Below, in pieces: positions 1-18,867 of a stretch of 20,177 nt of DNA (positions are counted from its first letter, which is position 1; each line of letters starts with the position of its first letter). The stretch is from positions 1 to 20,177 of the IMG/VR virus record IMGVR_UViG_3300044608_000283; one strand, 5' to 3'. Under the pieces are notes generated by a model. It did not search any database and was not told the DNA's origin. It worked only from the letters and a program-made list of their open reading frames with translations. The DNA comes from a virus. Position numbers and translations under genes: made by a program.

Positions 1-263
1 ATAAGCGGTGGGCCTATTGGAGCTGTAGGAGGAAATGCTGACGCAAGCATTCCGGCCCCAATTGTTAATTCAGGCGCTATTGCACCTAACCCAGCGCCAC
101 CAATTGCAGACCCAACAACCTCTCTGCCACGCTGCATAAATGTTTTTTCTTTTGGTTTTGGCTGCGGCTCAAGGCTTGGAACGCTTGATGAAGGCAAATC
201 ATCTTTTGGAACTGACGTTCCACGCAAGGAGTTAGGAAGGTCGTCTTCAGGTACAGCAGCCAT
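1..263 (-). CDS. N-terminus of probable internal virion protein (partial)
   Basis: The frame opens with ATG at 263, overlaps the stop of the upstream gene (TAATG) and stays open for 87 codons to the window edge, so only the N-terminus is present. It starts MAAVPEDDLPNSLRG and shows a repeated V-P-x-D-D-L-P motif near residues 4-10 and 18-24, then a Pro/Lys-rich linker. From about residue 49 a small-residue hydrophobic stretch follows (GSAIGGAGLGAIAPE), which looks like a glycine-zipper membrane segment. Short DDLP motifs near the N-terminus are common in large phage structural or ejected proteins, and the place behind three similar proteins fits. A catalytic domain such as a lytic transglycosylase could lie downstream but is not visible here. 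The reading frame is certain; the role is inference from context. Confidence 0.72.
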   Translation of the reverse strand, partial: MAAVPEDDLPNSLRGTSVPKDDLPSSSVPSLEPQPKPKEKTFMQRGREVVGSAIGGAGLGAIAPELTIGAGMLASAFPPTAPIGPPL

Positions 264-1714
264 TACTTGTACTCCCATGCCCCGTTGCGAAACACAATTG
301 GTTTACCAGACTTAGAAGTTGATTCTTGCCCTTCTTGCGGCCCCGCTTGAGGCGAAGGTTGCATCATGACTGGCGCTGCTGTTTGATAAGGGTTAACTCT
401 TTCGCCTGCAACAACCCCTGTATTCATTCCCGGCCTTACTTGTATAGCAGGCAAACCGGTAAACATTTGGCGATACACATCAATTGTGTCCTGCACGCCG
501 CGAGACATAATTTTTAATTTTTCATCAATAACTTGTGGGGTATCTCCTGGCTGAGGAACAGCACCATAGTTTCGCAATGCTTCAGCGCCAGTAACTGCTT
601 TTCCTGATTGGTCTAGATAATACTTATTTCTCATCCGAATAATCTTTGTCATGAATTGACGCACTTCTGGATCGCGTTCTGTTTGCATGACTTGAGAAAG
701 AAGCATACCCCCTTGTTCGGAGGCCCATTCTTGAGGCCTAGTTTTTTGAATTTTTTCAGCCAACGTTGGATTTTGTAAGTCTTGAACTAATTCATTTATA
801 TCGGCAACAAGTACATTGTCAGAAACAAATTTTTTAGTCACATCTGAACCAGGTTTTAACGAACCTTGTTGCGATTTTTGTTCTGCAAGTTCGCGCCTAA
901 GCTGTAAATTGTTTTCAGCAATCTGTTTTTGTACCGCCATCTGCTCTCTGCGCAACTCCGCTTGTTGTTGCAATTGAAACATTGTCTGTGATGCGCGGTC
1001 AGAACCTTCTATAGCTTTATTAAGAGCATCTTGTGCTTGCTTATATTGCCCTGCTCTCATTGAAGCAGCAAACACACTATTTTGATTCTCAGCTTCTAAA
1101 ACTTTTAATTCACCTTCGGCAGCCTTGCGGTCGGTTTGCAACAAACTCATAGCACGATTAAATCGTTCTAAGGTCTGTTTGTTGTTTTCTTTAATAGCGT
1201 CAACGTTTTTAGAAAAAACATCTAGTTCACGCTTGTAAACATCTTGCCTTCCTTGACGAAAACCTTCTACAGCTCCGTTAAGAGCTGCCATAGCAGCCAT
1301 CCCTGACCGCTTGCTAGCGCCACCAGTAAGGAAACCAGCAACAATACTAAGGCCAAGTACGTTTCGGATGTCTTCAAAGTTTGCAACACTAGGCTCAAAT
1401 GGTGGAATCTCTGCCTGACGATATTCAGGCGATTCCATAAGGGCTCGTTCTTTTACAGCAAATTCTTCGCCAATTTCTTTTTGGCGCGTAGCCATACCCG
1501 TACGCTGTTTAGCAATTTCCGCAGTAGACTTTTCCGCTTCTGCACGTTGAGCCTCCATAAGAGAAGGTAACTCTTCTTCCGCTGCGGTTCCACGGCTAAT
1601 GCGTCGCTGCATTCTCTGTTCAGGCGTTTCTTGCGCTGGAACTTGAGAAAATGTTGAACGCATTGCCCTTGTAATCGGGTCGCCTGTCGTACCAAGAGCG
1701 TCTTGCAGTGCCAT
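263..1714 (-). CDS. Probable internal virion / DNA-ejection protein, coiled coil
   Basis: This 483-residue protein has no enzymatic motif that I recognise. Residues 30-100 are charged and helical. Residues 119-152 form a small-residue hydrophobic block (LGLSIVAGFLTGGAS, then MAAMAALNGAVEGF) that could insert in a membrane. Residues 155-285 are a long Gln/Glu/Lys/Arg-rich helical region, probably coiled coil, and the last 60 residues are Pro/Gln-rich. A hydrophobic glycine-zipper block followed by a long helix is the usual look of internal virion proteins of podoviruses, which leave the head and form a conduit for DNA. It starts 2 nt after the preceding stop (TAATCATG) and its own stop overlaps the next start, so it is translationally coupled. 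The alternative is a tail or tape-measure-like protein. Confidence 0.72.
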   Translation of the reverse strand: MALQDALGTTGDPITRAMRSTFSQVPAQETPEQRMQRRISRGTAAEEELPSLMEAQRAEAEKSTAEIAKQRTGMATRQKEIGEEFAVKERALMESPEYRQAEIPPFEPSVANFEDIRNVLGLSIVAGFLTGGASKRSGMAAMAALNGAVEGFRQGRQDVYKRELDVFSKNVDAIKENNKQTLERFNRAMSLLQTDRKAAEGELKVLEAENQNSVFAASMRAGQYKQAQDALNKAIEGSDRASQTMFQLQQQAELRREQMAVQKQIAENNLQLRRELAEQKSQQGSLKPGSDVTKKFVSDNVLVADINELVQDLQNPTLAEKIQKTRPQEWASEQGGMLLSQVMQTERDPEVRQFMTKIIRMRNKYYLDQSGKAVTGAEALRNYGAVPQPGDTPQVIDEKLKIMSRGVQDTIDVYRQMFTGLPAIQVRPGMNTGVVAGERVNPYQTAAPVMMQPSPQAGPQEGQESTSKSGKPIVFRNGAWEYK

Positions 1715-1716
1715 GA

Positions 1717-2727
1717 TTAGCCTTTACCAGGAACAGTTGCAGTCGTTGATGTCGTAACAGGCGTTGTAGTCGTGCCGTAAATCGTGCGATACAAGTTAGT
1801 CAGCGTTGTATTCAGCATGTCGCGTGTAGCTTGGTCGGCAGCATAACCAGCCTTAATAGCCGCCGCTTGATACTGATCGCCAATGCCTGCAATCTTCAAA
1901 CCTTGATCAAGCACATCTTGCGCTGCACGCTGCTCTCTCATCACAGCCTGAGCCTGAGCTTGTTGCGCTGCGGTACCAGAGGTTAAACCACGTTGCGCTA
2001 ATTGCTGGCGCTCTCTTGCCGCCAACGCTTCGAGTTGCTGACGCTGTACAGGTGTAATCTCACCGCGCTGACCAGCCGCAATCATTTGTTGACCTAACGC
2101 TCGTTGCGGCGCACCAATAGCCGCTAACTCATTTTGCATACGTCTTGCTTGCTGACCAGCCTGTCTTGCTTGATAAATTGCAGCGGCTGTTCCAAGACCT
2201 GCTAAACCTTCTCTCGTACCAAGCACTTGCTTTGCGCCGCCCATGATGCGTTCTTGCATAGACCTTGGCTCTTCCGATGCAGGAAAATCCATTTGCATCT
2301 GTTTTGCATCGTAGTAACGAACATCAGGAATGCCCATGTCAGACGGCAATCGTTGCGGCGCAGCAATTGGTTCAAACGTGTCGTAAGTAAACCCTTGAGT
2401 TTGCATGGCTGGTTCAAAGCCTGGTGAAGCAGAAGGAGCTTCGTAAGTATCGTAAGTAAAACCTTGTTGTATATCTGGCGTAGATACAGGCATTGAAAAT
2501 GGAGCGCCTTCATAACCGAAACCGTAATTCTCTGGGTCTTCCTGAAACTCAGGTAATCCTGTCATAGGATTGATTGCACCAGAGCCACCATTAGCCTTGA
2601 GCATCTCTGCTTCTCTAGGCGTAATGTGCGCTAACACCGTGTCTTTACCGCGCCCATGCTGCCGCACTAACTCAGCTAATCGCTGTATATCGACACCACC
2701 AAGTAATGCTGCAAGTTGCTTTGCCAT
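1717..2727 (-). CDS. Probable internal virion protein
   Basis: This 336-residue protein has three parts. Residues 1-62 carry a conserved-looking segment (LAHITPREAEMLKANGGSG, then INPMTGLPEF) that I associate with internal or tail-tip proteins of aquatic podoviruses. Residues 85-125 hold two copies of a GFTYDT motif (89-94 and 112-117) in a Pro/Tyr-rich linker. Residues 155-300 are Ala/Gln/Arg-rich helix, including a small-residue patch (GLAGLGTAAAIY) near 174-185, and the tail is Thr-rich. No catalytic motif is visible. It begins 2 nt after the stop of the 1059-residue gene and ends 2 nt before the next start. Membership of the ejection-protein set is inferred from position, composition and the lack of membrane-anchor or enzyme features. 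Confidence 0.7.
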   Translation of the reverse strand: MAKQLAALLGGVDIQRLAELVRQHGRGKDTVLAHITPREAEMLKANGGSGAINPMTGLPEFQEDPENYGFGYEGAPFSMPVSTPDIQQGFTYDTYEAPSASPGFEPAMQTQGFTYDTFEPIAAPQRLPSDMGIPDVRYYDAKQMQMDFPASEEPRSMQERIMGGAKQVLGTREGLAGLGTAAAIYQARQAGQQARRMQNELAAIGAPQRALGQQMIAAGQRGEITPVQRQQLEALAARERQQLAQRGLTSGTAAQQAQAQAVMREQRAAQDVLDQGLKIAGIGDQYQAAAIKAGYAADQATRDMLNTTLTNLYRTIYGTTTTPVTTSTTATVPGKG

Positions 2728-2729
2728 GA

Positions 2730-5700
2730 TCAGATTCCTAATGCTCGACGCAGTTTTAATGATCTAACGTTCCATACTGGTTGCTGCTCTTCTTCACCAG
2801 TACCTTCAACATCATCACCCATGCCTTCAGACAACTGCACTCTGGTCGGCAAAATACTTGACCCTGTATCTACAACCCTTGTCCCTGGCTTTGGCGTATA
2901 CACGGGTCTTGGTGCAATTGCAAGTTGTTCTTCTGTAGCCACATCTGCTGGGCCTGCAACAGAACCTGGCGTTGTATCTTCAGGTTCTGCAACAGGTTCT
3001 GCACGTTCTACAGGTTGTTCTTCAATTCTGTCTAAACCCAAGAAACGTATGATGTCGTCATCTTCACCATAGGTCGGTGTTGTTTCTTCTGCGGGGCCAG
3101 TATCAAGCGCAGGGCCGGTGTTAACAGGTCTAGTTCCTGTTGGTGTTGTATCTAAGAAAGTTGTATCTTGGCCTGTTGTATCGACAGGCGATACGGTATC
3201 GATATTGACTCTTCCTGTTGTACCAGTTAAGTCAATCGTTTCTGTCACTGAAGGCTGTGTAGTCGGTGTCACAGCCGGAGTAGTAGTCGGTCGTGTGGCA
3301 GGCGTGGTTGTTGGTTGTGTCGCAGGTTTTGTTTCAGTACCACCTTGCGTGATAACTGTAGGCCCACCTTGCTGACCCGTTGATACCGTTGGCGTACCTG
3401 CTGGTTGCGTACTTGGCTGTTGAGTAACACCTCTTTGGCGAACCATCTCAGACAAGACTTCAATTTCTTGGCCTACCTGAGCAACAGTCGGGTTGCCTGC
3501 AAGCAAGATGCGAATAGCACCAGGACTAGATGGCAAACCTTTTAGCGCAAGTAACTCAGCAACTACTTCTGGCGTAGCAGGAACATTGGCGCTATACGGG
3601 GCTGCTGATATGGGCGCTGTCGGCTTTCCTACGTCTGCACCATTACCTCCGGTTTGCGCAACCTCTGTCGATACAGGCACGCCGCCTGTTGTGGCTGGGC
3701 CTGTTGTGGCTGGGCCTGTTGTGGCTGGGCCTGTTGTGGCTGGGCCGCTAACAGTCGGGGTTGTCGTCGGGCCACCGCCAGACGTAAGTTGATTGCCAGC
3801 AGTAATCGTGAGTGATTGGCCTTGCGTTACTGGTGCGCCAGTTGCAGTATCTGTTGCACCAACAATCTTTGTTGCACCAGAGCTATCAATTACTAACGCT
3901 GTATTGCTAGCAGGGTCAGTGCTAATAACAACTGCCGTATTAGGCGCACTAGGAATAACTTGTTGACCACCTGTTCTTGCTGCGACAACAGGTTCAATTG
4001 CTAATGTTCCACCGGCAGCAGGTGTTTGATCAGCAGGTAACGGCGTTGAACGAACTGTAATCGTGCCAAGCGAAGGCAATCCTTGTTGCGCAATATTCTG
4101 ACCGGCAGCGGCGATCTCTTCACCAGTTTGCACAGCAGCGGTCGTCTTGCCGCCAAGAACACCACCTAATACGGCATTGCCAAGTGCCTTGCTCTTATCG
4201 CCGGTAAGAAGGTAAGTTGTTAGACCTTCTTCTAAAAACTCATTAAAACTCTCTTTAAGTGGATTTAGTAACTTAGAACCGGCACCAGGAATCAAGCTCA
4301 TGGCAGCAGTTACTGCGCCTGCAACACCAGCATCGTTTCTTGCAGCGGCAACCAATTGCTCTGTTGTAAGGTTCGGGTAAGCTGCACGCAACTCGTCAAT
4401 CTTTTGCAAGGCTTGATTGCCAGCAGACTCTGCAATATTGAGTGCAAAACTACCAACCAGTGCTGCGGCTCTACCAGGTATAAGCAGTTGAGGTAGCTCT
4501 TGCGCCAGCTCTTTACTAACAAGCGTTAGCGAGCCAAGCGGATTATTCAAAGTCGCTTCAATAACAGCTTTTGCTATCTCAGTAATAGTTGCATTCGGAT
4601 TAGATGCTGTGGCGTAGATTTGATTGATAAAGGCTTGTTGCTGCTGTTTAACATCAGCAGGTATAAGCGCTTCACCACCTTCTTCGATGACTTTTAAATA
4701 GTCAATAGCACGTTGCAATCTTTCAGGCGCAATACCAAGTTGCTGGCCTGCCGACAACCAACTTTTTCCAAGTTCAGCAAGACCTGATTGCAAGATGCCG
4801 CGAGTCGTATCAAAGAAACCGGCCTGCACTAATGCTGGGTCACGTTCGCCCATGACGTAATCAACAGGGCCAGCACCGGATAAATCTTCGTATTCACCTA
4901 CAAAGCCAGCGCCTGATGCAGCTCTTGCAGCTCTTGCTTCATCTTGATTAATGGCGGTCGATGCGCCTCTTGTAAAGCCTTGTATAAAAGATTGACCTGG
5001 GTCGCCACCAGTAGCTAATGCCTGCGCAATACTTGTTCCACCTGAAACCAAACCGCTATCAATTGTTCTGTCACCAGTAATACTTAAGTCACCCGCAAGT
5101 GATTGAGCGCCAGAAGCAATCAATGAGTTAACAACAGCATTCTCAACATTGCCGCCCATAAGCTGAGCGCCAGCAGCGGCTTTTACTGCGTTATCAATAA
5201 TCGGATTGCCAACGACATTAGGAATGATTGAGCTTGCAACGTTTTGTTTTATTGCTGTTTCAATCGGTACGCCTTGAGCGACCTGAATGCTTGTATTGAT
5301 AATGCCTTGCCCAACGACTTGAGCTACTGCTGCATTAGTAATACCAAGCGCATTGCCAATAGCTGAGGCATAAGGGCCAAGTACAGGAGCCGCAAGCAAT
5401 CCAGCAGCCATACCAACAAAATCTTTGAAGGCTTGATCTGGATGCTCACCTTTATAGAATTGCCCTTCACCTACAGGAACAAGCTGATCACCTTGCACAG
5501 CATACATCTGCGCATAACGTTCACGATTTGGCCCACCTGTCTTGCCAGCAATGTGATAAAACTGGTTGCCATTGACATCGGTATAAGGCGTAATGCTCGT
5601 GCTTGTATGGCCTACAAGCGCTTGATAAATTGGGTTTGCAGCATCAACATTTTGAGACAACCATTCAAGCGCTGTCATTGGTTGGGTTTCATACCCAACG

Positions 5701-5909
5701 ACACCTTGTTCATTCTCAATAGGAACCTGTTTAGTTTCAAAGTCAGTTACACCAGCAAAAGGGTTAGGCAATGACATGCCTGGGCCAAGATTTCTGACCG
5801 CTGTTGCTTGCTCATTAGCTGAAGGTAATGCAGCAGGATTTACGCCGACTTCTTGAATCAGACTTTCAACCATTGTTGGGTCGTCAAGTAGTCGTCGAGT
5901 AGTTGCCAT
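2730..5909 (-). CDS. Very large internal virion / ejection protein with Thr/Pro-rich region
   Basis: This is the largest gene here (1059 residues) and it starts directly after the preceding stop (TAAATG). Residues 1-160 look globular. From about 160 to 330 the chain is Ala/Gly/Val/Ile-rich with amphipathic or membrane-active character (FVGMAAGLLAAPVLGPYAS; IGNALGITNAAVAQVV). Residues 340-640 are mostly helical, with a second hydrophobic glycine-rich block near 535-610. Residues about 640-960 are low-complexity Thr/Pro/Gly/Gln sequence containing an exact PATTG repeat. The C-terminus is acidic and then basic (SLKLRRALGI). I find no transglycosylase, peptidase or nuclease motif. Size, position after the fibres and membrane-active composition suggest an ejected internal protein comparable in role to T7 gp15/gp16 or P22 gp16/gp20, but I cannot show homology. 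Confidence 0.72.
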   Translation of the reverse strand: MATTRRLLDDPTMVESLIQEVGVNPAALPSANEQATAVRNLGPGMSLPNPFAGVTDFETKQVPIENEQGVVGYETQPMTALEWLSQNVDAANPIYQALVGHTSTSITPYTDVNGNQFYHIAGKTGGPNRERYAQMYAVQGDQLVPVGEGQFYKGEHPDQAFKDFVGMAAGLLAAPVLGPYASAIGNALGITNAAVAQVVGQGIINTSIQVAQGVPIETAIKQNVASSIIPNVVGNPIIDNAVKAAAGAQLMGGNVENAVVNSLIASGAQSLAGDLSITGDRTIDSGLVSGGTSIAQALATGGDPGQSFIQGFTRGASTAINQDEARAARAASGAGFVGEYEDLSGAGPVDYVMGERDPALVQAGFFDTTRGILQSGLAELGKSWLSAGQQLGIAPERLQRAIDYLKVIEEGGEALIPADVKQQQQAFINQIYATASNPNATITEIAKAVIEATLNNPLGSLTLVSKELAQELPQLLIPGRAAALVGSFALNIAESAGNQALQKIDELRAAYPNLTTEQLVAAARNDAGVAGAVTAAMSLIPGAGSKLLNPLKESFNEFLEEGLTTYLLTGDKSKALGNAVLGGVLGGKTTAAVQTGEEIAAAGQNIAQQGLPSLGTITVRSTPLPADQTPAAGGTLAIEPVVAARTGGQQVIPSAPNTAVVISTDPASNTALVIDSSGATKIVGATDTATGAPVTQGQSLTITAGNQLTSGGGPTTTPTVSGPATTGPATTGPATTGPATTGGVPVSTEVAQTGGNGADVGKPTAPISAAPYSANVPATPEVVAELLALKGLPSSPGAIRILLAGNPTVAQVGQEIEVLSEMVRQRGVTQQPSTQPAGTPTVSTGQQGGPTVITQGGTETKPATQPTTTPATRPTTTPAVTPTTQPSVTETIDLTGTTGRVNIDTVSPVDTTGQDTTFLDTTPTGTRPVNTGPALDTGPAEETTPTYGEDDDIIRFLGLDRIEEQPVERAEPVAEPEDTTPGSVAGPADVATEEQLAIAPRPVYTPKPGTRVVDTGSSILPTRVQLSEGMGDDVEGTGEEEQQPVWNVRSLKLRRALGI
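3685..3744 (-). repeat. Four exact 15-bp tandem repeats
   Basis: Four perfect head-to-tail copies of a 15-nt unit (plus-strand cctgttgtggctggg) lie inside the 1059-residue gene. They encode the pentapeptide PATTG/GPATT about four times near residues 722-742. The length is a multiple of three, so copy-number changes would keep the frame. The repeat sits inside the longer Thr/Pro-rich low-complexity region. Confidence 0.97.
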
Positions 5910-6248
5910 TTACAGTCCTAGTGCATTGATGATTTGCTGGTGAATCAATAAATGGCCTTGCAACCATTCATAAAAGTCATCTTCCTGGTTCCAGTCCGTA
6001 TCAAACAAGTCAAACGGGTTTTCCAACCCTAACTGCTCTGCAAGCGCGTTATGCTCTACTGAATGCGCCCACAGCCAATCGTCCAAGTCCTCAATGTCAG
6101 CATCGGCTATAGGGAACCGAGGTATCAATATCCCCGTATCCGCAAGCTGATTCGCAAAAGTCTGGTGCTGGACGGCATTTTCAAAGAGCATCTCGCGCAA
6201 GCCATCGCTATCACCAAAAACAACGTTAGATAGAGTCTCCAGATTCAC
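5910..6248 (-). CDS. Unknown 112-residue protein with internal helical repeat
   Basis: This is an acidic small protein of unknown function. It starts at a GTG (6248) inside the end of the preceding gene, with a 23-nt overlap; a weak AGGGG lies about 10 nt upstream. Two C-terminal units can be aligned, residues 58-75 and 95-112, sharing W-L-x-x-H-x-x-x-H and a terminal L-G-L. A weaker first copy sits near residues 21-36 with His28. His28, His66 and His103 are spaced 38 and 37 residues apart, suggesting repeated helical hairpins. Trp and Asp are frequent (DDWLWAH, DTDWNQEDD). It lies between the adhesin cluster and the ejection proteins, so it could be a tail accessory protein. The GTG start is likely but not proven. 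Confidence 0.72.
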   Translation of the reverse strand: MNLETLSNVVFGDSDGLREMLFENAVQHQTFANQLADTGILIPRFPIADADIEDLDDWLWAHSVEHNALAEQLGLENPFDLFDTDWNQEDDFYEWLQGHLLIHQQIINALGL

Positions 6249-6573
6249 TCGAATCTGCCCCTAAACCAAGGTCAATAACAGGAACAATCCACTGACATGT
6301 CGCTTCATCAAGCGTTGCATCATCACTAGGACGCGGTGGAATAAACGCATCACGCACCGGATCGTAGGTGTAGCCGATACCTGCGTAGTTCTTGCGCTTG
6401 CTGCCATTGTAGGAAGTCTGTTTCCAGTGCTGATAACCACCAGACCAAGCTACCAAGAAGTCGATGCCTTTCTGTTCTTGCTCAACACCGTTTTCGTCAA
6501 GCAGTTCGTTGTTGTGAACAACATGCACTTCAAGCACATTGTTGTTCTGATCTAGCTTTGCGAAGTGGGCCAT
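6226..6573 (-). CDS. Conserved aquatic-phage protein of unknown function (MAHFAKLD type)
   Basis: I place the start at ATG 6573, giving 115 residues beginning MAHFAKLDQNNNVLEVHVV. A GAGG Shine-Dalgarno lies 5 nt upstream, and this start lies 7 nt after the stop of the glycine-rich gene. A longer frame would begin at 6630 inside that gene. The sequence matches in style a small protein frequently seen in cyanophages and other aquatic phages: N-terminal MAHFAKLD, middle W-K-Q-T-S-Y-N, then KNYAGIGYTYDPVRDAFIPP and a Cys-x-Trp near the end. Its function is not established to my knowledge. Frequent occurrence beside tail-fibre genes suggests a virion or tail role, which is inference. The last 23 nt overlap the next gene. 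Confidence 0.8.
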   Translation of the reverse strand: MAHFAKLDQNNNVLEVHVVHNNELLDENGVEQEQKGIDFLVAWSGGYQHWKQTSYNGSKRKNYAGIGYTYDPVRDAFIPPRPSDDATLDEATCQWIVPVIDLGLGADSSESGDSI

Positions 6574-6580
6574 ATCAACC

Positions 6581-7489
6581 TCAGAATGTGATGGAGCCGT
6601 TGCCGGTCCATGAGTAAATGCGATAACCACCAGACGTTGTCACAGTCGGGCTTCCGGTTGTTGAGGTTGCAGCGGGATAAGTGTCTGGATAACGAATAGC
6701 GACAAAGCCAGAGCCGCCGTTTCCGCCATTTGTGGTGCCAGTTGCAGCAGATCCGCCACCACCGCCACCTGTATTGGCAGTGCCGCTTGTTCCGGCGCCT
6801 GAGGTTGATCCGGCGCCGCCGCCTGCCGTTGCAGTTCCTGCTGTTCCGCCACCGCGAGTCCCCGCACCACCACCACCACCGCGAGCAACAGCAGAGCCAG
6901 TGATGCTTGAGGTCACTCCACTTCCGCCATTACCTCCAGTGTTTTCGGCAGAACCGTTAGCACCATTTCCACCAGCACCACCACCGCCACCTCCATAACC
7001 TCTTGAGTTGACCGTCGGGGCAGAAGGAGGCGTTCCGCCTGCATAACCTTGTGCAGTTGTTCCTGCTTTACCTTGACCGGGGCCAAAAACAGTTCCGGCA
7101 GAATCACGCATTACTGCGCCACCACCTCCAGAGCCGCCAACTACACCGTCAATATTTCCGGTTGTTGCTGAACCACCACCGCCCCCGCCTGTACTGATGA
7201 TTGTGTCAAAGTAGGAATTAGTTCCATTTGGACCCTGATTTAACCCACCTGTTCCACCACCACCGACTTGAATGCTGTATGCAACTCCAAACCGTGCGTC
7301 AAATTTTGCTTCGGCGCTTGCGCCGCCCCCTGAGTTTTCTCCGGTAACAGATGACCGATAACCACCTGCTCCACCACCAGCGCCAGAAGCGTTTCCGCCA
7401 CCACCAGCGCCACCCCCTGCTAAAACTAAATATTCAAGAGGAATGCCGGAGGAAAACGAACCAAGCACAAGATTAAGTATTCCAGCCAT
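6581..7489 (-). CDS. Glycine-rich tail adhesin / candidate receptor-binding protein
   Basis: This 302-residue protein is dominated by glycine runs at residues about 25-43, 76-82, 101-124, 164-190, 204-228 and 241-262, separated by Ser/Thr/Asn/Ala spacers. The N-terminus (EYLVLAGGGAGGGG at 19-32) and the C-terminus (GGYRIYSWTGNGSITF at 287-302) are typical of the phage glycine-rich-domain proteins found at fibre tips. T4-like gp38 adhesins use similar glycine-rich motifs to build polyglycine-II sandwiches whose loops bind the receptor; that comparison is structural analogy, not shown homology. The spacers between glycine runs would be the variable, host-specific parts. It follows the 142-residue protein by 3 nt without a strong Shine-Dalgarno. 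It is the best candidate here for the receptor-contact protein. Confidence 0.83.
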   Translation of the reverse strand: MAGILNLVLGSFSSGIPLEYLVLAGGGAGGGGNASGAGGGAGGYRSSVTGENSGGGASAEAKFDARFGVAYSIQVGGGGTGGLNQGPNGTNSYFDTIISTGGGGGGSATTGNIDGVVGGSGGGGAVMRDSAGTVFGPGQGKAGTTAQGYAGGTPPSAPTVNSRGYGGGGGGAGGNGANGSAENTGGNGGSGVTSSITGSAVARGGGGGAGTRGGGTAGTATAGGGAGSTSGAGTSGTANTGGGGGGSAATGTTNGGNGGSGFVAIRYPDTYPAATSTTGSPTVTTSGGYRIYSWTGNGSITF

Positions 7490-10026: not shown

Positions 10027-10368
10027 TCAGAGTCCGTCGCCTGGAGTTATATAAATCGCCGCGCTATCGCTTGCCGTAATCGCTGTAAAGTAAGCATTAG
10101 GCGGAAACGACAGAATTTCATCAGTTCCTGCCAGTAAAGGCAAGACTGTTTGCGAGTTAGCACCGCTTCCCGTTGGGATCACGCAGTTGCTGCTTGCCGT
10201 GGCCGAGTCAGAGGCAAACGATAAGAAAGCAGTCACTAACCCATCGTTAATAACACGGTACTGATTGCCACCCAGTGTGGTTGATGGCACTTGCGCAGCA
10301 GCAGGTGCCGTTGTTGCGCCAACAATCTTGACGGTCTTGCCTGTAATCGTAAATGCTTGAACGCCCAT
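10027..10368 (-). CDS. Small beta-rich tail/fibre accessory protein
   Basis: I start this gene at ATG 10368, giving 113 residues (MGVQAFTITGKTVKIVG). An AGAGG Shine-Dalgarno lies at 10374-10378 and the start is 8 nt after the preceding stop. The frame stays open upstream to 10512, but those 48 codons lie inside the preceding gene in another frame, are rich in Cys/Trp/Arg/Tyr unlike the rest, and have no good start. The protein shows alternating beta pattern with NQYRVINDG, GTDEILSFPPNAYFTAI and a terminal YITPGDGL, a pattern I associate with small proteins encoded next to phage fibres. Its function is unknown; a fibre-attachment, tail-knob or head-surface protein are all possible. Confidence 0.8.
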   Translation of the reverse strand: MGVQAFTITGKTVKIVGATTAPAAAQVPSTTLGGNQYRVINDGLVTAFLSFASDSATASSNCVIPTGSGANSQTVLPLLAGTDEILSFPPNAYFTAITASDSAAIYITPGDGL

Positions 10369-10373
10369 GTCTA

Positions 10374-10378
10374 CCTCT
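10374..10378 (-). promoter_or_regulatory. Shine-Dalgarno AGAGG that fixes the start at 10368
   Basis: AGAGG lies 5 nt before ATG 10368 and spans the stop of the previous gene. It supports the short form of the 113-residue protein over the longer frame beginning at 10512. Confidence 0.7.
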
Positions 10379-11075
10379 ATGGAGTAACAGCGCCAGTAAT
10401 AATGCAAACAGTGCCGCTTAAAAACAAAACTGATCCAACGCCTCTTGGCTGTATTTGAACTGTAGCTTTGTCGCCATCTGTTCCTGATAAATAAGCAGTC
10501 GTAATAGAACAAGTAAGCGTAACGTTGCTTGATGTATTGTTTGCTATGCCAACTACATCGCCATTAGCAAAAACAGCGTCTGGAATCACAATACTGCCAC
10601 CAGAACCGATCTCAACATACTTACCAATATCAGCCTTAGCAAGCGTATAAGACGTTGTTTTAGCACCTACGGGTGGGACATTGAAATAACCATTGGTGTT
10701 GAGCAACAAGAACTGCGTACCGTCATACATGATGTCAACAATGGCACCAGCCAGAATCGTACTTGGCCCAAGGCTTGTACCGTTGGCATAAGTGATGTTC
10801 TTGACACCTTGCCCATTGACGTTAATCGTTGACGCACCCGTATTCGCGTTAGTTGCCTTGAACTGAATCCTAAGACCTGCTGCGTAAGTCGTTGTTAAAC
10901 TTGAAAAAGTTACAACGTAAGCGTTTGCCACACCCGTATCAGCAGCATAGTTGCTGTAGGTATTGGCATCGTTGATTGAGTTAGATACCGTCGTAAAGTT
11001 GCTATCAAGCTGAGACAACGGAATGGTTGTCGTCGCTGTAGCAAAAGTATTCGGTACGGTAATAGGCTTAGTCAT
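10377..11075 (-). CDS. Tail-fibre protein with conserved N-terminal fibre domain
   Basis: This 232-residue protein starts at ATG 11075, sharing one base with the stop of the nozzle gene (TGATG), which implies coupled translation. Residues 1-45 carry the fibre-like start (PLSQLDSNFTTVSNSIND). Residues 48-126 form a beta domain common in phage fibres (ANAYVVTFS, FKATNANTGASTINVNG, VDIMYDGTQFLLLN). Residues 129-232 are the paralogous tip domain shared with the 142-residue protein at 7493-7921. Its place directly after the nozzle protein suggests it is the first fibre segment attached to the tail, or a short separate fibre. The fold is expected to be all beta and trimeric, by family analogy. Confidence 0.83.
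   Translation of the reverse strand: MTKPITVPNTFATATTTIPLSQLDSNFTTVSNSINDANTYSNYAADTGVANAYVVTFSSLTTTYAAGLRIQFKATNANTGASTINVNGQGVKNITYANGTSLGPSTILAGAIVDIMYDGTQFLLLNTNGYFNVPPVGAKTTSYTLAKADIGKYVEIGSGGSIVIPDAVFANGDVVGIANNTSSNVTLTCSITTAYLSGTDGDKATVQIQPRGVGSVLFLSGTVCIITGAVTP
10380..10679 (-). repeat. Paralogous fibre-tip domain, copy 1
   Basis: This codes residues 133-232 of the 232-residue fibre protein and matches the domain at 7496-7792 with about 65 percent protein identity and no gaps. A short G-Y-[FL]-N stretch just before it is also shared. Confidence 0.9.
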
Positions 11076-12969: not shown

Positions 12970-13605
12970 TCAATACGGAATGCTATAGGGTGTCGGAAGT
13001 CGGCGCGTCATGGTCGAAGTCAGTGCTGCCTTGACTTGCTGCTCATACTGCGCCTTAAAGATTTCTGCTTCACCATATGACTGCTCTTTGTACTTCGCAG
13101 TATGCGCTGCGTAGTATTTAACAGGCTTGGTATACGGGTCAAGAATGGTTTCAATGGATGAGTTCGAGGTCAGCGGTTCAGGAAGAATCACTGTATCGAC
13201 TTCAATCTGGTAGTTTTGGTCAGGAATCGGGCCAAAGTAAATCGTTTGCTGTCCGTAAATGCTAAAAGCAACCGGTCTGCCCGTGTAATTCTGCCAAAAA
13301 CGCAACTCTGCGTTGAACTGGCTCCAAGCAAGGTAGCGCAGCGGAATACGGGTGTTACCCCAGTATAAATTGACGTTTAAGACATCAATCGTGCGATTGG
13401 CTTGCGGAAGCGCTGCATAAGACAGTGTTTCAACCGCATTAAGGATGGTATACGACTGGATCGTACGCAAACAGCCGGTATCTCGAACGACACGCTCTCG
13501 CGCATCATTGATATAGTCGGCTAGCTCGGTATCCGTCCAAAAGTTACCAGCCGCATCGTGCAGAAGCCTTCTAACTTCCGTGATGTACCCCGAATACGTT
13601 GCCAT
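12970..13605 (-). CDS. Head-to-tail adaptor (connector) protein
   Basis: This 211-residue protein begins at ATG 13605 with GAGG 5 nt upstream. Residues 1-60 (YSGYITEVRRLLHDAAGNFWTDTELADYINDARERVVRDTGC) are a helical start typical of phage adaptor proteins of the P22 gp4 / HK97 gp6 type: a short helix, a W-T-D-x-E-L turn and a long helix ending in VVRDTG. The middle is beta-rich (RTIDVLNVNLYWGNTRIPLRYLAW; YFGPIPDQNYQIEVDTVILPEPL), as in the extended adaptors of short-tailed phages, and the C-terminus is helical (YYAAHTAKYKEQSYGEAEIFKAQYEQQV). Twelve subunits would sit under the portal and hold the nozzle. Its position between capsid-side genes and the nozzle gene fits. Confidence 0.83.
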   Translation of the reverse strand: MATYSGYITEVRRLLHDAAGNFWTDTELADYINDARERVVRDTGCLRTIQSYTILNAVETLSYAALPQANRTIDVLNVNLYWGNTRIPLRYLAWSQFNAELRFWQNYTGRPVAFSIYGQQTIYFGPIPDQNYQIEVDTVILPEPLTSNSSIETILDPYTKPVKYYAAHTAKYKEQSYGEAEIFKAQYEQQVKAALTSTMTRRLPTPYSIPY

Positions 13606-14382: not shown

Positions 14383-14715
14383 TTACGTGTTGTAAGTACC
14401 GGTCGCTGCTTGACCACCATTGATGGTCAGATACTGCGCAGTCACGGTTCCCGATGCTGAACTCCATTTGACGTTAACGCCATCAGAGATCACAACGCCG
14501 CCAGTGGTTGTTGACGCAGCCATAATGCTGGTAAACGTCGTACCATCCAGACTAGCCTTAACCGAAAGGTTAGCAACGGGGAACATGATGTACAGACCGG
14601 CAGGGATAACAACATCCGTACCTGCTGCAACAGTCTGCGAACCAGCGTCAAAATAAGCGCCGTCAGAGTTTGCGGCAAGACCGCTAACAATGATTTTATT
14701 AAGTGCAAGTGCCAT
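14383..14715 (-). CDS. Unknown beta-rich protein directly after the capsid gene, possible decoration protein
   Basis: This 110-residue protein begins at ATG 14715 with AAGGAG 6 nt upstream, one of the best Shine-Dalgarno sites in the window, so high expression is likely. The sequence is an alternating beta pattern with Gly/Ser/Thr turns (GTDVVIPAGLYIMFPVANLSVKASLDGTTFTSI; VVISDGVNVKWSSASGTVTAQYLTI) and no Cys or His. Lying 10 nt after the major capsid stop and having its own strong ribosome site, it fits a capsid decoration or cement protein; a tail-related beta protein is the alternative. There is no family match that I can name. Confidence 0.76.
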   Translation of the reverse strand: MALALNKIIVSGLAANSDGAYFDAGSQTVAAGTDVVIPAGLYIMFPVANLSVKASLDGTTFTSIMAASTTTGGVVISDGVNVKWSSASGTVTAQYLTINGGQAATGTYNT

Positions 14716-14725
14716 GTTTTACTCC

Positions 14726-15736
14726 TTACAGGGTCAACGAGTTGTAGCCCGTTACCTTGGTCATGGCCTTGGGCTTGGTGTTTACCAATTCTGCAATGGT
14801 CAACACAGCGCCAACATATCCAATCTGCCAGTTAGGCAAGGTGGACTCAAAGCCAGTAAAGGCAAACTCAGCCTGTTCGTGAATATACATGCTCATGTAA
14901 TTCGTGTTGAGCAAGTACAGGGTGCCTTCTGGGCAATACGGATCAGGATAGATCGGTACGCCAGCAACCATCAACGCACGAAACGCTGCATTGGGGCCAT
15001 CTTCACCGTTGGCAAAGCTCGATCCTGGCGTGATCATGTAGGTTTCTTGGCCTACAAAGTCTTGTGCCAGCAACGTCCATGTGCCAAAACCGCAAACGCC
15101 AAAGGTCGGAACCTCTGCCGAGTTCTTTACGGTACCGGAGATGTACTGAAGCAAGTTCTGACGAGTCGGGTTAACCGAGCCAGCAGCGTATTGCTTTGAC
15201 TTCCACCAGGTGTTGGTCGAACGGTTGATATTGCCGTAAGTCGCTGTACCCGTACCATCATCCACAGCAGCGGGAAGACCCGTGAATTGCTGCGTATTGG
15301 TGGTGTTGGTGTAAAGCGCGGTCGCCATAGCATCCATCATGACGTTGGTCGCATCGTTCATGCGAGCCTCAATCAAGGGAATCACAGCGTAGTCTTGCTG
15401 AACTGCACCTTCCATACCGAGGAACGGCACGGGTGCAATCATCAGCTTGAGGTTCCACTCAGCGTTGTATGCACCTTGCTGAACAGCAGGCTGTGCAAAC
15501 GAACCAGAGTAGTCCGACCACTGCGCGTTAACAAACTGGGAACCCTGAACCGGCACGGTGACGGAAGACACACCACCAGAGGCGGTTTGTGAGTTCGCCA
15601 GCAGCGCGGCAAGCAGGGGCGTTGAGTTATAAAGCTGGACAACCAGTTTGGGAATGAATGCTCTACGAGTAACGTAGGTCAGTTCATTAAACTGACTGGT
15701 GCCCGATGCTGGGAGAATACCACCACCGATAGCCAT
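14726..15736 (-). CDS. Major capsid protein (HK97-type fold expected)
   Basis: This 336-residue protein starts at ATG 15736 with AGGAG at 15743-15747, 6 nt upstream. It follows the scaffold candidate and portal, the canonical place of the major head gene. The N-terminal part (FNELTYVTRRAFIPKLVVQLYNSTPLLAAL) resembles the N-arm and early helix seen in many phage capsid proteins. The region around residues 175-240 (NTWWKSKQYA ... NLLQYISGTV ... TWTLLAQDFVGQETYMITPG) and GVPIYPDPYCPEGTLYLLNTNYMSMYIH near 258-285 resemble the P- and A-domain strands of capsid proteins of short-tailed aquatic phages. No N-terminal delta domain or protease gene is visible, so maturation may not need cleavage and a separate scaffold is used. 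The assignment is by recognition and context. Confidence 0.9.
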   Translation of the reverse strand: MAIGGGILPASGTSQFNELTYVTRRAFIPKLVVQLYNSTPLLAALLANSQTASGGVSSVTVPVQGSQFVNAQWSDYSGSFAQPAVQQGAYNAEWNLKLMIAPVPFLGMEGAVQQDYAVIPLIEARMNDATNVMMDAMATALYTNTTNTQQFTGLPAAVDDGTGTATYGNINRSTNTWWKSKQYAAGSVNPTRQNLLQYISGTVKNSAEVPTFGVCGFGTWTLLAQDFVGQETYMITPGSSFANGEDGPNAAFRALMVAGVPIYPDPYCPEGTLYLLNTNYMSMYIHEQAEFAFTGFESTLPNWQIGYVGAVLTIAELVNTKPKAMTKVTGYNSLTL

Positions 15737-15759
15737 GTTTAGCTCCTAAAAAACAGCCC

Positions 15760-16299
15760 TTAACCTAAACCAATAGGCCGCGAACGATTACCGTTACGCA
15801 GCTCATTAAACGCAGCAGCCGCCTGCTCTCGCGCAGCGGCAACCGGATTCTTCATAAAGTTCTGGATGCCCATCTTGTTAATGACAGCCGAACCATTAAA
15901 GACCGGTGTAGGACGATCAAGCTGCTTTTCCTGCATGATGTACTGCGCAGCAGTCTCATGGTTGTTGATTCCTTTTTCAACCATGATTTTTTCGATCATC
16001 TTGATGTCATCTTCGTTTTCAGCAAACCCTTTCTCTTTCAACACCGAGCGCCGTCTTGCCAACTCTTCTTTAGCTTCCTTCTCACGAAGTCTGGCTTCCA
16101 AAGCGGCAATTTTTGCCTCTTGTGCTGCAACCGCACGGTTGGTGTGCTCTTCAATCTCAATTTCAGGCACCGGCAAATCAGGGTGCGCTGTTTTAGTGAG
16201 TTTTAAGAACTCACGACGAGTTTTAGGATTCTCGGCAAGCGCTTTTGCAAGTGCTGCCAACTCATCGCGTGCATCTGGGGTTAGTGATTCGAGTGACAT
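15760..16299 (-). CDS. Capsid scaffolding protein (candidate)
   Basis: This 179-residue charged, helical protein lies just upstream of the capsid gene, with an AGGAAGGG Shine-Dalgarno before ATG 16299. Residues 1-38 are helical (DARDELAALAKALAENPKTRREFLKL). Residues 55-95 form a strong Ala/Glu/Arg/Lys coiled coil (AQEAKIAALEARLREKEAKE). A second helical part (EDDIKMIEKIMVEKG) and a C-terminal section with a basic tail (RNGNRSRPIGLG) follow. High charge, coiled coil and a basic C-terminal end are characteristic of phage scaffolding proteins, which line the inner surface of the procapsid and leave before or during packaging. No protease motif is seen. The role is inferred from position and structure. 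Confidence 0.78.
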   Translation of the reverse strand: MSLESLTPDARDELAALAKALAENPKTRREFLKLTKTAHPDLPVPEIEIEEHTNRAVAAQEAKIAALEARLREKEAKEELARRRSVLKEKGFAENEDDIKMIEKIMVEKGINNHETAAQYIMQEKQLDRPTPVFNGSAVINKMGIQNFMKNPVAAAREQAAAAFNELRNGNRSRPIGLG

Positions 16300-16318
16300 G
16301 TTCAGCCCTTCCTAAAAC

Positions 16319-16498
16319 TTAGTAAACTTTCTTGGTGTCCCCAGGCTTGCTGAGGCTCATCTTGTTACGCGACACTTTGTTAGCGCCAGAAAGGCCACCA
16401 AACATGTCGTAACGAGGAGGGTTAGTGATCTGACCGTTTTGCTGCTGGTTATCCAGCGGCTTACGAATCGTTCCAGCGCGAGGGCGAAAAAGTTCCAT
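16319..16498 (-). CDS. Small 59-residue head-module protein
   Basis: Reading the minus strand from ATG 16498, with AGGAG 6 nt upstream, gives a clean 59-residue frame ending in TAA at 16319. It begins MELFRPRAGTIRKPLDNQQ and contains NPPRYDMFGGLSGANKVSR near residues 27-45; the end is basic (KPGDTKKVY). It is basic, Pro/Asn/Gln-rich and probably mostly disordered. It sits 9 nt after the preceding gene and 19 nt before the scaffold gene, filling what would otherwise be a gap, so I regard it as real. Its function is unknown; an assembly cofactor or minor head protein is possible. Confidence 0.75.
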   Translation of the reverse strand: MELFRPRAGTIRKPLDNQQQNGQITNPPRYDMFGGLSGANKVSRNKMSLSKPGDTKKVY

Positions 16499-17071: not shown

Positions 17072-17245
17072 TCAATACCTTTTGCCAGCAGAACGGTAAG
17101 CCGTCCGGTTCATGGGTGCTCGCTGATACTGCAAGCGAGGTGCTTTATTCATTTCACGCAAGTCCGTTTCCGTTACGCGAGGTTGATCGCCTTGTGAACG
17201 GTAGGAATTTTGCATATTGCTTGACGATTCACTGTTTTCGTTCAT
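17072..17245 (-). CDS. Small 57-residue protein after the portal
   Basis: The minus-strand frame starts at ATG 17245, overlapping the portal stop as ATGA, and runs 57 codons to TGA at 17072. It begins MNENSESSSNMQNSYRSQ, is hydrophilic, rich in Ser, Asn, Arg and Gln, and ends in a basic Tyr/Arg-rich tail (NRTAYRSAGKRY). The ATGA overlap and lack of any other frame in this space make it a likely real gene. It is probably disordered. Small proteins at this position in short-tailed phages have no assigned role; a minor head or portal-associated protein is a guess. Confidence 0.7.
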   Translation of the reverse strand: MNENSESSSNMQNSYRSQGDQPRVTETDLREMNKAPRLQYQRAPMNRTAYRSAGKRY

Positions 17246-18867
17246 AACGCCTCCGGTTGAGCAGCACTTTCAGGCTGTTGCTGGGCTTGCATCATTTGAG
17301 CAGATTGTTGCGCTTCTTGCATCTTACGCAAATCTTCTTTCAATTGCTGTTTCATAGGTGGTTCAAGGATGTCAATGAGCCTTTCTTTGGTAATTGCGCC
17401 ACGATCTGCCAGCGCAAAGGCCAAAGCACGCAAATCTTCGGTAAAGATAGGCGAATTGCTATGCGCATCCACTTTCACCACAAAATCGTCGGTAAATTGG
17501 CCTGCAATGAACTTATTTTGGTCTAAATCACGATAAGAACGGGCCGAATAGACCTGCATACACTTCAAATAGAGCGTTGCCATCTTTTCTAGCGCATCTT
17601 CAACGATTAAAGCGCGTTTTTTAGCCCTTGAAGAGCCTAAACGAGCCAATTGTGAAGCATGACCAGCGCTTCTAACGCCTGATTCGCCCCTACCTTGCAG
17701 CACATTCACAATGCCAGAGGCTTCTTCAAACATTTTGTCGATCTGATCGATCTCTCTAAAGAGATCATTGGGTATCGAAGGCGCTAATTGCTCAACTTTC
17801 GCGTTGGGCATGTCGGTTGCAAGCAAGCCAGCAGCACGATTAAGCGCAAAATTCTTTTCATCAAGCAAGCCTGTAAAGCCAATAAGCGCTGTAGGCGGTG
17901 CTACTTGCTTAGAAAGCAGGTCAAGAATCTCTGCCATGCGTTTATTGCGCATGTCTTGCAGGAAAACTAGCCTTCCAACCTCAGAGATACCCCAGTAATA
18001 GTCGTACTGAGGTGTTGGGCAAATCTGCACAAAGGGTAATTCACCCTTTAAGAACATGCTTGCACCTGGTCTGTCATACACAACGACGTTAGGATCGGCA
18101 ATGGTTACGCACTGATAGTCTTCCGTGTCGTCATTCCAGACCCATAACTCCGTCATCTTGATGGTTTCTTCACCCACCGTTGGCTTATAAGTCTGCATCC
18201 CAGCGATATTGAGGTTCACATTCCCGTACATCGTTGGGTCAGTAGCCGAAAGAATCAGACGCTGGATGCCATCAGGCACTTGAGACTGCTGCGACTCACC
18301 TATTTGCACCCGCGCAAAGATCGCATCTCGATTGGGGTGCGAGTAAAGACGGGCTTGCAGTTCGCTCTTTGTGATGTAGTAAATCTGTACGAGCGCTTCT
18401 TGCCTATCGGTGTAAGGCGTATCTTCACGCAACACACCCATCAAGCGTGGGTCAACCATGTAAGGGTGCATACCCTTTTTAGGAATGAGCTTGATAAAGG
18501 TGGAGTTGTAGCAAAGCGCCCAGTTAAGCGCTTGGGCAAAGACCTGATCAGCATTGGAGTTTAGCCAGTCATCATTCAATGCGCCTGTCAGCGAAGGAAT
18601 CATGGACTGATAGCTAGGTTCTACTGAGGCACCAAGCGTGATGGAAAAGCGCGTCGTTTCTGCCGAGTAGAGAAACGAAGAGAGCTGATCAATGTGAGGG
18701 TAAATCTTGTTGTAGTAGGCAGGCGGTGCATCAATGCCTGCGCCAAAAAGATAGTAAGAGCGCAATGAATCGTATTCGCCAGTCCTTGATTGGATACTGA
18801 CGGAGCATTTCTCCACTAAGTCATAGTAAAACTGCTCACGCTCAACCAAATCTGTTGGGATTTTCAT
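17242..18867 (-). CDS. Portal protein
   Basis: This 541-residue protein follows the zinc-ribbon gene with an ATGA overlap and is the expected size for a portal of a short-tailed phage. The N-terminal third is helical with a loop (YYNKIYPHIDQLSSFLYSAETTRFSITLG) and FAQALNWALCYNSTFIKLIPK, typical of the portal clip and stem approach. The region EVGRLVFLQDMRNKRMAEILDLLSKQVAPPTALIG matches the stem/crown pattern of portals. Further on, EEASGIVNVLQGRGESGVRSAGHASQLARLGSSRAKKRA is a strong portal signature: a Gly-rich turn and long helix that line the channel. The C-terminal 35 residues are Gln/Met/Ala-rich. Twelve copies would form the DNA entry ring that binds terminase and adaptor. The assignment is by pattern and by the terminase-portal-scaffold-capsid order. 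Confidence 0.92.
   Translation of the reverse strand: MKIPTDLVEREQFYYDLVEKCSVSIQSRTGEYDSLRSYYLFGAGIDAPPAYYNKIYPHIDQLSSFLYSAETTRFSITLGASVEPSYQSMIPSLTGALNDDWLNSNADQVFAQALNWALCYNSTFIKLIPKKGMHPYMVDPRLMGVLREDTPYTDRQEALVQIYYITKSELQARLYSHPNRDAIFARVQIGESQQSQVPDGIQRLILSATDPTMYGNVNLNIAGMQTYKPTVGEETIKMTELWVWNDDTEDYQCVTIADPNVVVYDRPGASMFLKGELPFVQICPTPQYDYYWGISEVGRLVFLQDMRNKRMAEILDLLSKQVAPPTALIGFTGLLDEKNFALNRAAGLLATDMPNAKVEQLAPSIPNDLFREIDQIDKMFEEASGIVNVLQGRGESGVRSAGHASQLARLGSSRAKKRALIVEDALEKMATLYLKCMQVYSARSYRDLDQNKFIAGQFTDDFVVKVDAHSNSPIFTEDLRALAFALADRGAITKERLIDILEPPMKQQLKEDLRKMQEAQQSAQMMQAQQQPESAAQPEAL

Follow-up and report, generated by a model that had tools for sequence, protein, structure and literature searches.

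A conserved gene cassette, probably encoding the ejection proteins of a short-tailed phage, with two short terminal motifs

The IMG/VR virus record IMGVR_UViG_3300044608_000283 was analysed in its entirety as a single window of 20,177 bases, beyond which the phage's own genome can be read no further. Its left end is occupied by four consecutive genes on the minus strand, named here A (1059 amino acids, aa), B (336 aa), C (483 aa) and D (92 aa visible, open at the contig end), which probably encode the internal virion proteins that a short-tailed phage ejects. An initial annotation, made from the letters of this DNA alone, had seen in them four ejection-type proteins without a visible enzyme. 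The open reading frames (ORFs) and their sizes were confirmed, and homologues in the same order were recovered from many contigs; the figure of at least 87 residues first given for D holds from its second ATG, while the first ATG gives 92.

Conservation and layout of the cassette

IMG/VR was searched with A (20 loci), C (14 loci) and B (80 loci, the best 80 being taken); among the 600 stretches looked at with the B search, at least 437 encode a relative. The 80 B-search loci are not independent samples, several contigs being the same as in the A and C searches, and removal of incomplete cassettes and near-duplicates reduced them to 58 and then to 48 representatives. The order A-B-C-D was kept, with median intergenic gaps of 0, 2 and −1 bases across the 80 loci, and A directly adjoined B in all 75 of these loci in which A was found. 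Since homologues occur in many contigs with the same order and spacing, A–D are genes and not chance ORFs. Median lengths of complete B, C and D proteins were 352, 486 and 791 aa, a small-medium-large succession (ranges 317–481 aa, n = 78; 316–676 aa, n = 73; and 184–990 aa, n = 70, respectively). Complete A proteins measured 246 to 1744 aa (n = 68, median 528), a sevenfold variation in length.

The C-terminus of A and the N-terminus of B each carry a short conserved motif. The pattern W(N/S)..SL(R/K) was present within the last 40 residues of A in 71 of 75 proteins, the four misses being close variants, and its strict form WNxxSL(R/K) was found in 69/75 A proteins versus 0/80 B, 0/76 C and 0/72 D proteins. 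Across the 48 representatives only W and S of this motif were invariant, while P, N and L came close. The motif was not used in finding the 80 loci, and its conservation therefore counts as independent evidence. The conservation of the box near the N-terminus of B is partly by construction, because two octapeptides inside it served as the search patterns for those loci; the 20 residues within aa 18–58 that were invariant across 49 sequences nevertheless exceed what the patterns require.

A–D hold together as a set, as first described, but a fifth and better conserved gene belongs to it as well. This gene, encoding a 112-aa protein, was detected by tblastn in 65 of 66 testable loci (complete A and at least 700 bases upstream) and is the best conserved of the cassette. 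Five of its histidines (positions 28, 62, 66, 99 and 103, including two HxxxH pairs) are near-invariant, at 98% identity or more in the window and 60 distinct sequences. A search of PDB sequences returned no significant match (best E 0.81) and the protein falls into no known family; our guess would be a metal-binding helical bundle.

By head and portal protein, the closest annotated phages are the uncultivated Manatee Spring genomes MW202825 and MW202753. They share the 112-aa gene and the A-B-C-D cassette, largely unannotated or misnamed, and differ in the lengths of A (616 and ~275 aa) and D (476 and 633 aa). In MW202825 the A homologue (14522–16372) is annotated as ribonuclease E, which is probably a misannotation.

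The cassette is mosaic. At the DNA level the window is 95–97% identical to loci L002 and L003 across B and A, from position 1709 to the right, but only ~71% over a short stretch of C. Its C and the beginning of D instead show ~75% identity to L009 and L019. This places a recombination junction at about 1709–1717, at the B/C boundary (1714/1717); A+B and C+D were inherited as two blocks in the window's lineage. The first 92 aa of D are 81.5–84.8% identical to D of L009, L019 and L020, and in relatives sharing this N-terminus, such as these three, D measures 893–896 aa. In other relatives it spans 464–999 aa and is partly unrelated to the window type. D itself is mosaic, with only parts common to its short and long forms; that of MW202753 bridges the types, being like the short form at its N-terminus and like the long form in the middle.

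The case for ejection and its alternatives

Position and family matches both support an ejection role. A–D close a short-tailed-phage structural module at its downstream end, where head-tail genes precede them; they follow the adaptor and tail genes and come ahead of lysis, B-C-D keeping their small-medium-large succession. Short D forms match phrog_26400, a PHROG family named 'DNA ejection protein', in 8/48 representatives (best E 1.2e-16), and glycine-zipper Pfam families match 4/48 A homologues (best E 9.3e-5). Among 97 B and C proteins there was one SLT transglycosylase, on C of L104 (Pfam E 1.7e-26), which also matched soluble lytic transglycosylases in PDB at E 4e-14; its SLT domain is N-terminal and is followed by the usual C core (FVPTQETAGDIASLF...GWRQGRQD). 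These matches support the ejection-type identity first proposed, and no homology of A–D to tail-fibre or replication proteins, named then as contrary evidence, was seen.

Structure prediction adds a further point in favour. The model of B (built from 49 sequences, mean predicted local distance difference test score, pLDDT, 64.4) is confident over aa 172–317, mostly at pLDDT ~86–94, and this helical region aligns with T7 gp14 (8e4g_a; VIA-align rank 42, Z 8.7, root-mean-square deviation 4.7, 126/127 residues aligned). Among predicted viral proteins (BFVD) three matches reached E 0.001, none of them usefully named; entries named internal virion protein or DNA transfer protein followed at E 0.002–0.023, beside tape measure and other names. 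The model matches are suggestive of a gp14-like role for B, agreeing with it without proving it.

We infer that A–D are probably late proteins, packaged inside the head close to the portal and driven out before the DNA so as to form the lining of its path through the cell envelope, with an order of exit and a division of labour as follows. B would be the gp14/gp7-like outer component, C the gp15/gp20-like tunnel component and D the gp16-like inner component, and A an extra, very length-variable glycine-zipper protein that may insert into or permeabilise the membrane. The fixed C-terminus of A (WNxxSLR) and the N-terminal box of B may act as docking or loading handles, which would leave the remainder of both proteins free to change. 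As is reported of gp16 in P22 and Sf6, the set itself is without a peptidoglycan hydrolase, the hydrolase of a relative, where present, sitting on C.

Passages of a review by Swanson and colleagues (PMC8954989) give the T7 order as gp14-gp15-gp16 and the P22 homologues as gp7 (229 aa), gp20 (471 aa) and gp16 (609 aa). The initial annotation had found no obvious match in sizes and order to the T7 or P22 sets; that claim is not supported, since B-C-D repeats the order 7-20-16 in roughly its size classes, C being particularly close to gp20 (483 versus 471 aa), and only A is extra. The cassette differs from that of P22 in having A with its C-terminal motif, the B box and a usually larger D, with no detectable sequence similarity. 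It shares with T7 the gene order, and the modelled helical region of B aligns with the solved T7 gp14 chain, again without sequence similarity; it differs in its hydrolase, which T7 has on gp16 and the cassette does not have at all, or, in L104, has on C. The same passages of the review report that P22 and Sf6 lack the hydrolase domain that T7 carries on gp16, and that this domain can move to gp15-like proteins, K1E gp35 being an example. This is the situation seen here: no hydrolase in most cassettes, and one on the gp15-slot gene of a relative. No homology to P22 or T7 proteins having been shown, the cassette is best regarded as working like a P22-type set without being filed in that family. 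Phages BUCT555 (Stenotrophomonas) and Mx8 (Myxococcus) have a distantly related major head protein (27–28% identity) and a similar series of large genes, in BUCT555 with a transglycosylase-annotated gene within it, but their ejection-region proteins fail to match A–D.

Several results weigh against an ejection role. The Gly/Ala segments to which membrane activity had been ascribed are real in A, as are its low-complexity P/T/Q/G-rich linkers, but they are only moderately hydrophobic, with modest peaks (largest 19-residue Kyte-Doolittle mean 1.53). The long D of the window type does not match phrog_26400. The B-model alignment stands against a high helical background, unrelated helical proteins scoring equally (117/761 chains at Z ≥ 8). 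Foldseek found nothing for the B model in PDB at E 0.001 or better, nor any match at that level for the C model (55 sequences, mean pLDDT 73.3, mostly helical), although the absence of a family from such fold-match lists excludes nothing. Profile comparison by hhalign, in which four profiles were run against 49 targets (P22 gp7, gp20, gp16, gp14, gp26 and gp10, T7 gp13–15, and proteins of Mx8, BUCT555, a Bradyrhizobium phage, a TM7 phage and MW202803), reached a best probability of 10.9%; T7 gp16, one MW202803 protein of more than 1100 aa, the A profile and two smaller D profiles lay outside this run. The gap was partly filled by hmmsearch of the A–D profiles against all ORFs of at least 60 aa in eleven annotated loci, among them T7 and P22, which gave no similarity to the ejection-region proteins of P22, T7, Mx8 or BUCT555.

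Three candidate matches were set aside. The resemblance of the C model to a chain of the cyanophage A4 pre-ejectosome (rank 44, root-mean-square deviation 30.6) was judged meaningless, and the marginal hmmsearch matches of A to a TM7-phage ORF (E 0.0012) and of D to Venkman gp43 (E 0.0021) were not relied on.

The absence of a visible enzyme was confirmed: A, B, C and the visible part of D had no enzyme match in Pfam or PHROG, and A, B and C had none among PDB sequences. The accompanying suggestion, that D carries the wall-cutting activity beyond its visible part, is not supported. Related IMG/VR contigs extend beyond window position 1, and reading them for a lysozyme or transglycosylase revealed no such domain in D; no enzyme family was found in any of the 48 D homologues, nor in ten D proteins scanned, one of them of the 893-aa type, and no peptidoglycan hydrolase domain was present in A–C of the window, its visible D or that scanned relative. 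The suggestion is not directly disproved, as the window's own D continues off the record, and an enzyme gained there by exchange would fit both the mosaic nature of D and the mobility of the SLT domain; given enzyme-free relatives that share its first 92 residues, we consider it very unlikely. Relatives encode a separate lysozyme of 155–171 aa downstream of the cassette (one, tested against solved structures, was GH24-type, E 6e-18), and MW202825 likewise annotates one; a separate lysis endolysin being ordinary, this gene is uninformative about entry. A hydrolase role belongs to gp4 in P22, which is mentioned as background and not used as evidence.

Two other explanations concern what the proteins are for. 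A could belong to the outside of the virion, as a fibre, needle or adhesin, or act as a spacer in the manner of a tape measure, B-C-D alone being ejected, as its long P/T/Q/G-rich linkers, its range of lengths and the adjoining fibre-like genes might suggest, together with the occurrence of the B box in an annotated tail tape measure protein of the related phage DSL-LC04. This is unlikely in view of the glycine-zipper families in A homologues, the invariable contact of A with B (75/75 loci) and the minimal A of MW202753, which consists mostly of Gly/Ala-rich membrane-type sequence. Very unlikely is that A–D are scaffold or morphogenesis factors that assemble the particle without being delivered into the host: two phage contigs from genome bins (L135 and L138) have the B box on a small protein among head genes, a morphogenesis position, but the SLT domain of the L104 C protein and the ejection family matched by D better fit proteins that act on the envelope.

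An ejection cassette thus described is fairly rated as a sequence-divergent form of a known kind of system, previously undescribed. The open-access literature, to which the search was confined (subscription papers and preprints lay outside it), describes neither the cassette nor its motifs; no paper on environmental ejection cassettes was found, and the motif strings retrieved no relevant paper, wntrsl occurring in a single unrelated one. Detailed knowledge of ejection proteins comes from a few phages such as T7; the present cassette, for which at least 437 IMG/VR stretches were counted, is without Pfam models. Its two short terminal motifs make it recognisable and allow the annotation of many environmental short-tailed phages. 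It also opens to test whether fixed termini serve as head or portal loading signals, how a tunnel may form without a hydrolase, and whether a box common to toxin-like proteins is a general envelope-crossing element.

The B box beyond the cassette

Without the remainder of B, the B box occurs in DSL-LC04, within a 759-aa protein that bears a tail tape measure annotation, and in the 302-aa gp46 of Methylophilales phage Venkman (EXVC282S), the nearest cultivated box carrier detected. According to parts of its description (PMC8163748), Venkman particles are short-tailed by electron microscopy, and its authors class it as a siphovirus, allowing for lost tail structures. In OR003939 the box-bearing protein (43137–45416) is called tail tape measure in a phage with podovirus-type genes, probably a misannotation.

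Bacterial genome bins yielded 34 B-box loci, and in many of these, mostly from Alphaproteobacteria, the box lies ~100–160 residues into a large protein. Ten bin proteins were scanned, nine of bacterial and one of phage type. All nine bacterial-type proteins have PG_binding_1 at the N-terminus, and in one a glycine zipper directly follows the box; C-terminal domains included GH108 with PG_binding_3 (E 6.8e-21) and, below the Pfam cut-off, CHAP (E 0.0019) and barnase-like PBECR1 (E 0.0001). To us, the box-bearing bin proteins look like polymorphic toxins, a label of our own. By eye, a terminase-like gene is nearby in L127, L129 and L132, and several other loci lie amid ordinary chromosomal genes.

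Toxin-like proteins that combine an N-terminal PG_binding_1, the B box and variable C-termini (barnase-like nuclease, CHAP or GH108 muramidase) were seen at L127:7767–9899, L134:152–2197 and 4244–6412, and L145:7566–9920, the two nearby copies in L134 sharing an N-terminus and differing at the C-terminus. The small box-bearing proteins among head genes, at L138:7857–8837 and L135:3338–4216, are on phage-like contigs, and their placement differs from that in the cassette.

It is possible, if on the doubtful side, that the B box is a portable envelope-delivery module carried by phage ejection proteins and alphaproteobacterial toxin-like proteins alike. According to passages of a study of the type VI secretion system effector Tde1 (PMC10240207), passage of this effector through the target inner membrane requires its glycine zipper, an element that the authors also point out in tape measure proteins of prophages; both points support a shared mode of translocation without testing it. 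Tde1 and other glycine-zipper toxins have the principle alone in common with the cassette, and sequence homology is not claimed. Were the proposal true, phage DNA ejection and interbacterial toxin delivery would use one address-and-translocation element, possibly because the toxins ride in virions or virion-derived particles.

Genomic setting

Read from right to left, the window encodes a portal-like protein, small genes, the major head protein, an SU10-type adaptor, a 632-aa protein and fibre-like genes, followed by a 134-aa gene and the 112-aa gene directly before A. Coordinates are collected in Table 1.

Table 1. Positions of cassette genes, their conserved parts and structural genes in the window
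Feature	Position	Strand	Remarks
Gene A	2730–5909	−	1059 aa; Gly/Ala-rich segments, low-complexity P/T/Q/G-rich linkers, conserved C-terminus
C-terminal motif of A (PVWNVRSLKLRRALGI)	2733–2780	−	W(N/S)..SL(R/K) in last 40 residues
First hydrophobic Gly/Ala segment of A (aa 159–199)	5313–5435	−	Hydropathy scan
Second hydrophobic segment of A (aa 472–493)	4431–4496	−	Hydropathy scan
Gene B	1717–2727	−	336 aa; N-terminal box, predicted disordered linker and C-terminal helical hairpin; putative gp14/gp7 slot
N-terminal box of B (aa 25–61; GRG.DT.LAHITP.EA...NP.TGLPEF)	2545–2655	−	49-sequence alignment
Helical region of B (aa 172–317)	1777–2214	−	Confident part of AlphaFold2 model
Gene C	263–1714	−	483 aa; predicted mostly helical; putative gp15/gp20 slot
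Gly-rich core of C (aa 106–169; F.PS...GG..KRSG...GFRQGRQD..KRE)	1208–1399	−	Alignments of 17 and 49 C proteins
Gene D	3–278	−	First 92 aa, then off record; putative gp16 slot
Fifth cassette gene	5910–6248	−	112-aa acidic His-rich protein directly upstream of A
Portal-like protein	17242–18867	−	Weak PHROG matches
Major head protein	14726–15736	−	phrog_9953, E 1.3e-36
SU10-type adaptor	12970–13605	−	Pfam E 9.1e-20

Beyond the Manatee Spring genomes, identity of the head protein drops to 24–29% for Mx8, Mx9, BUCT555 and others. A 302-aa extremely Gly-rich protein (6581–7489; phrog_2295, no assigned function) adjoins the fibre-like genes. The protein encoded at 10027–10512 is ~30% identical to the product of a 112–113-aa gene that lies downstream of D in relatives (e.g. 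L003:19468–19806), and a fibre-region protein thus seems to have been duplicated into the lysis region.

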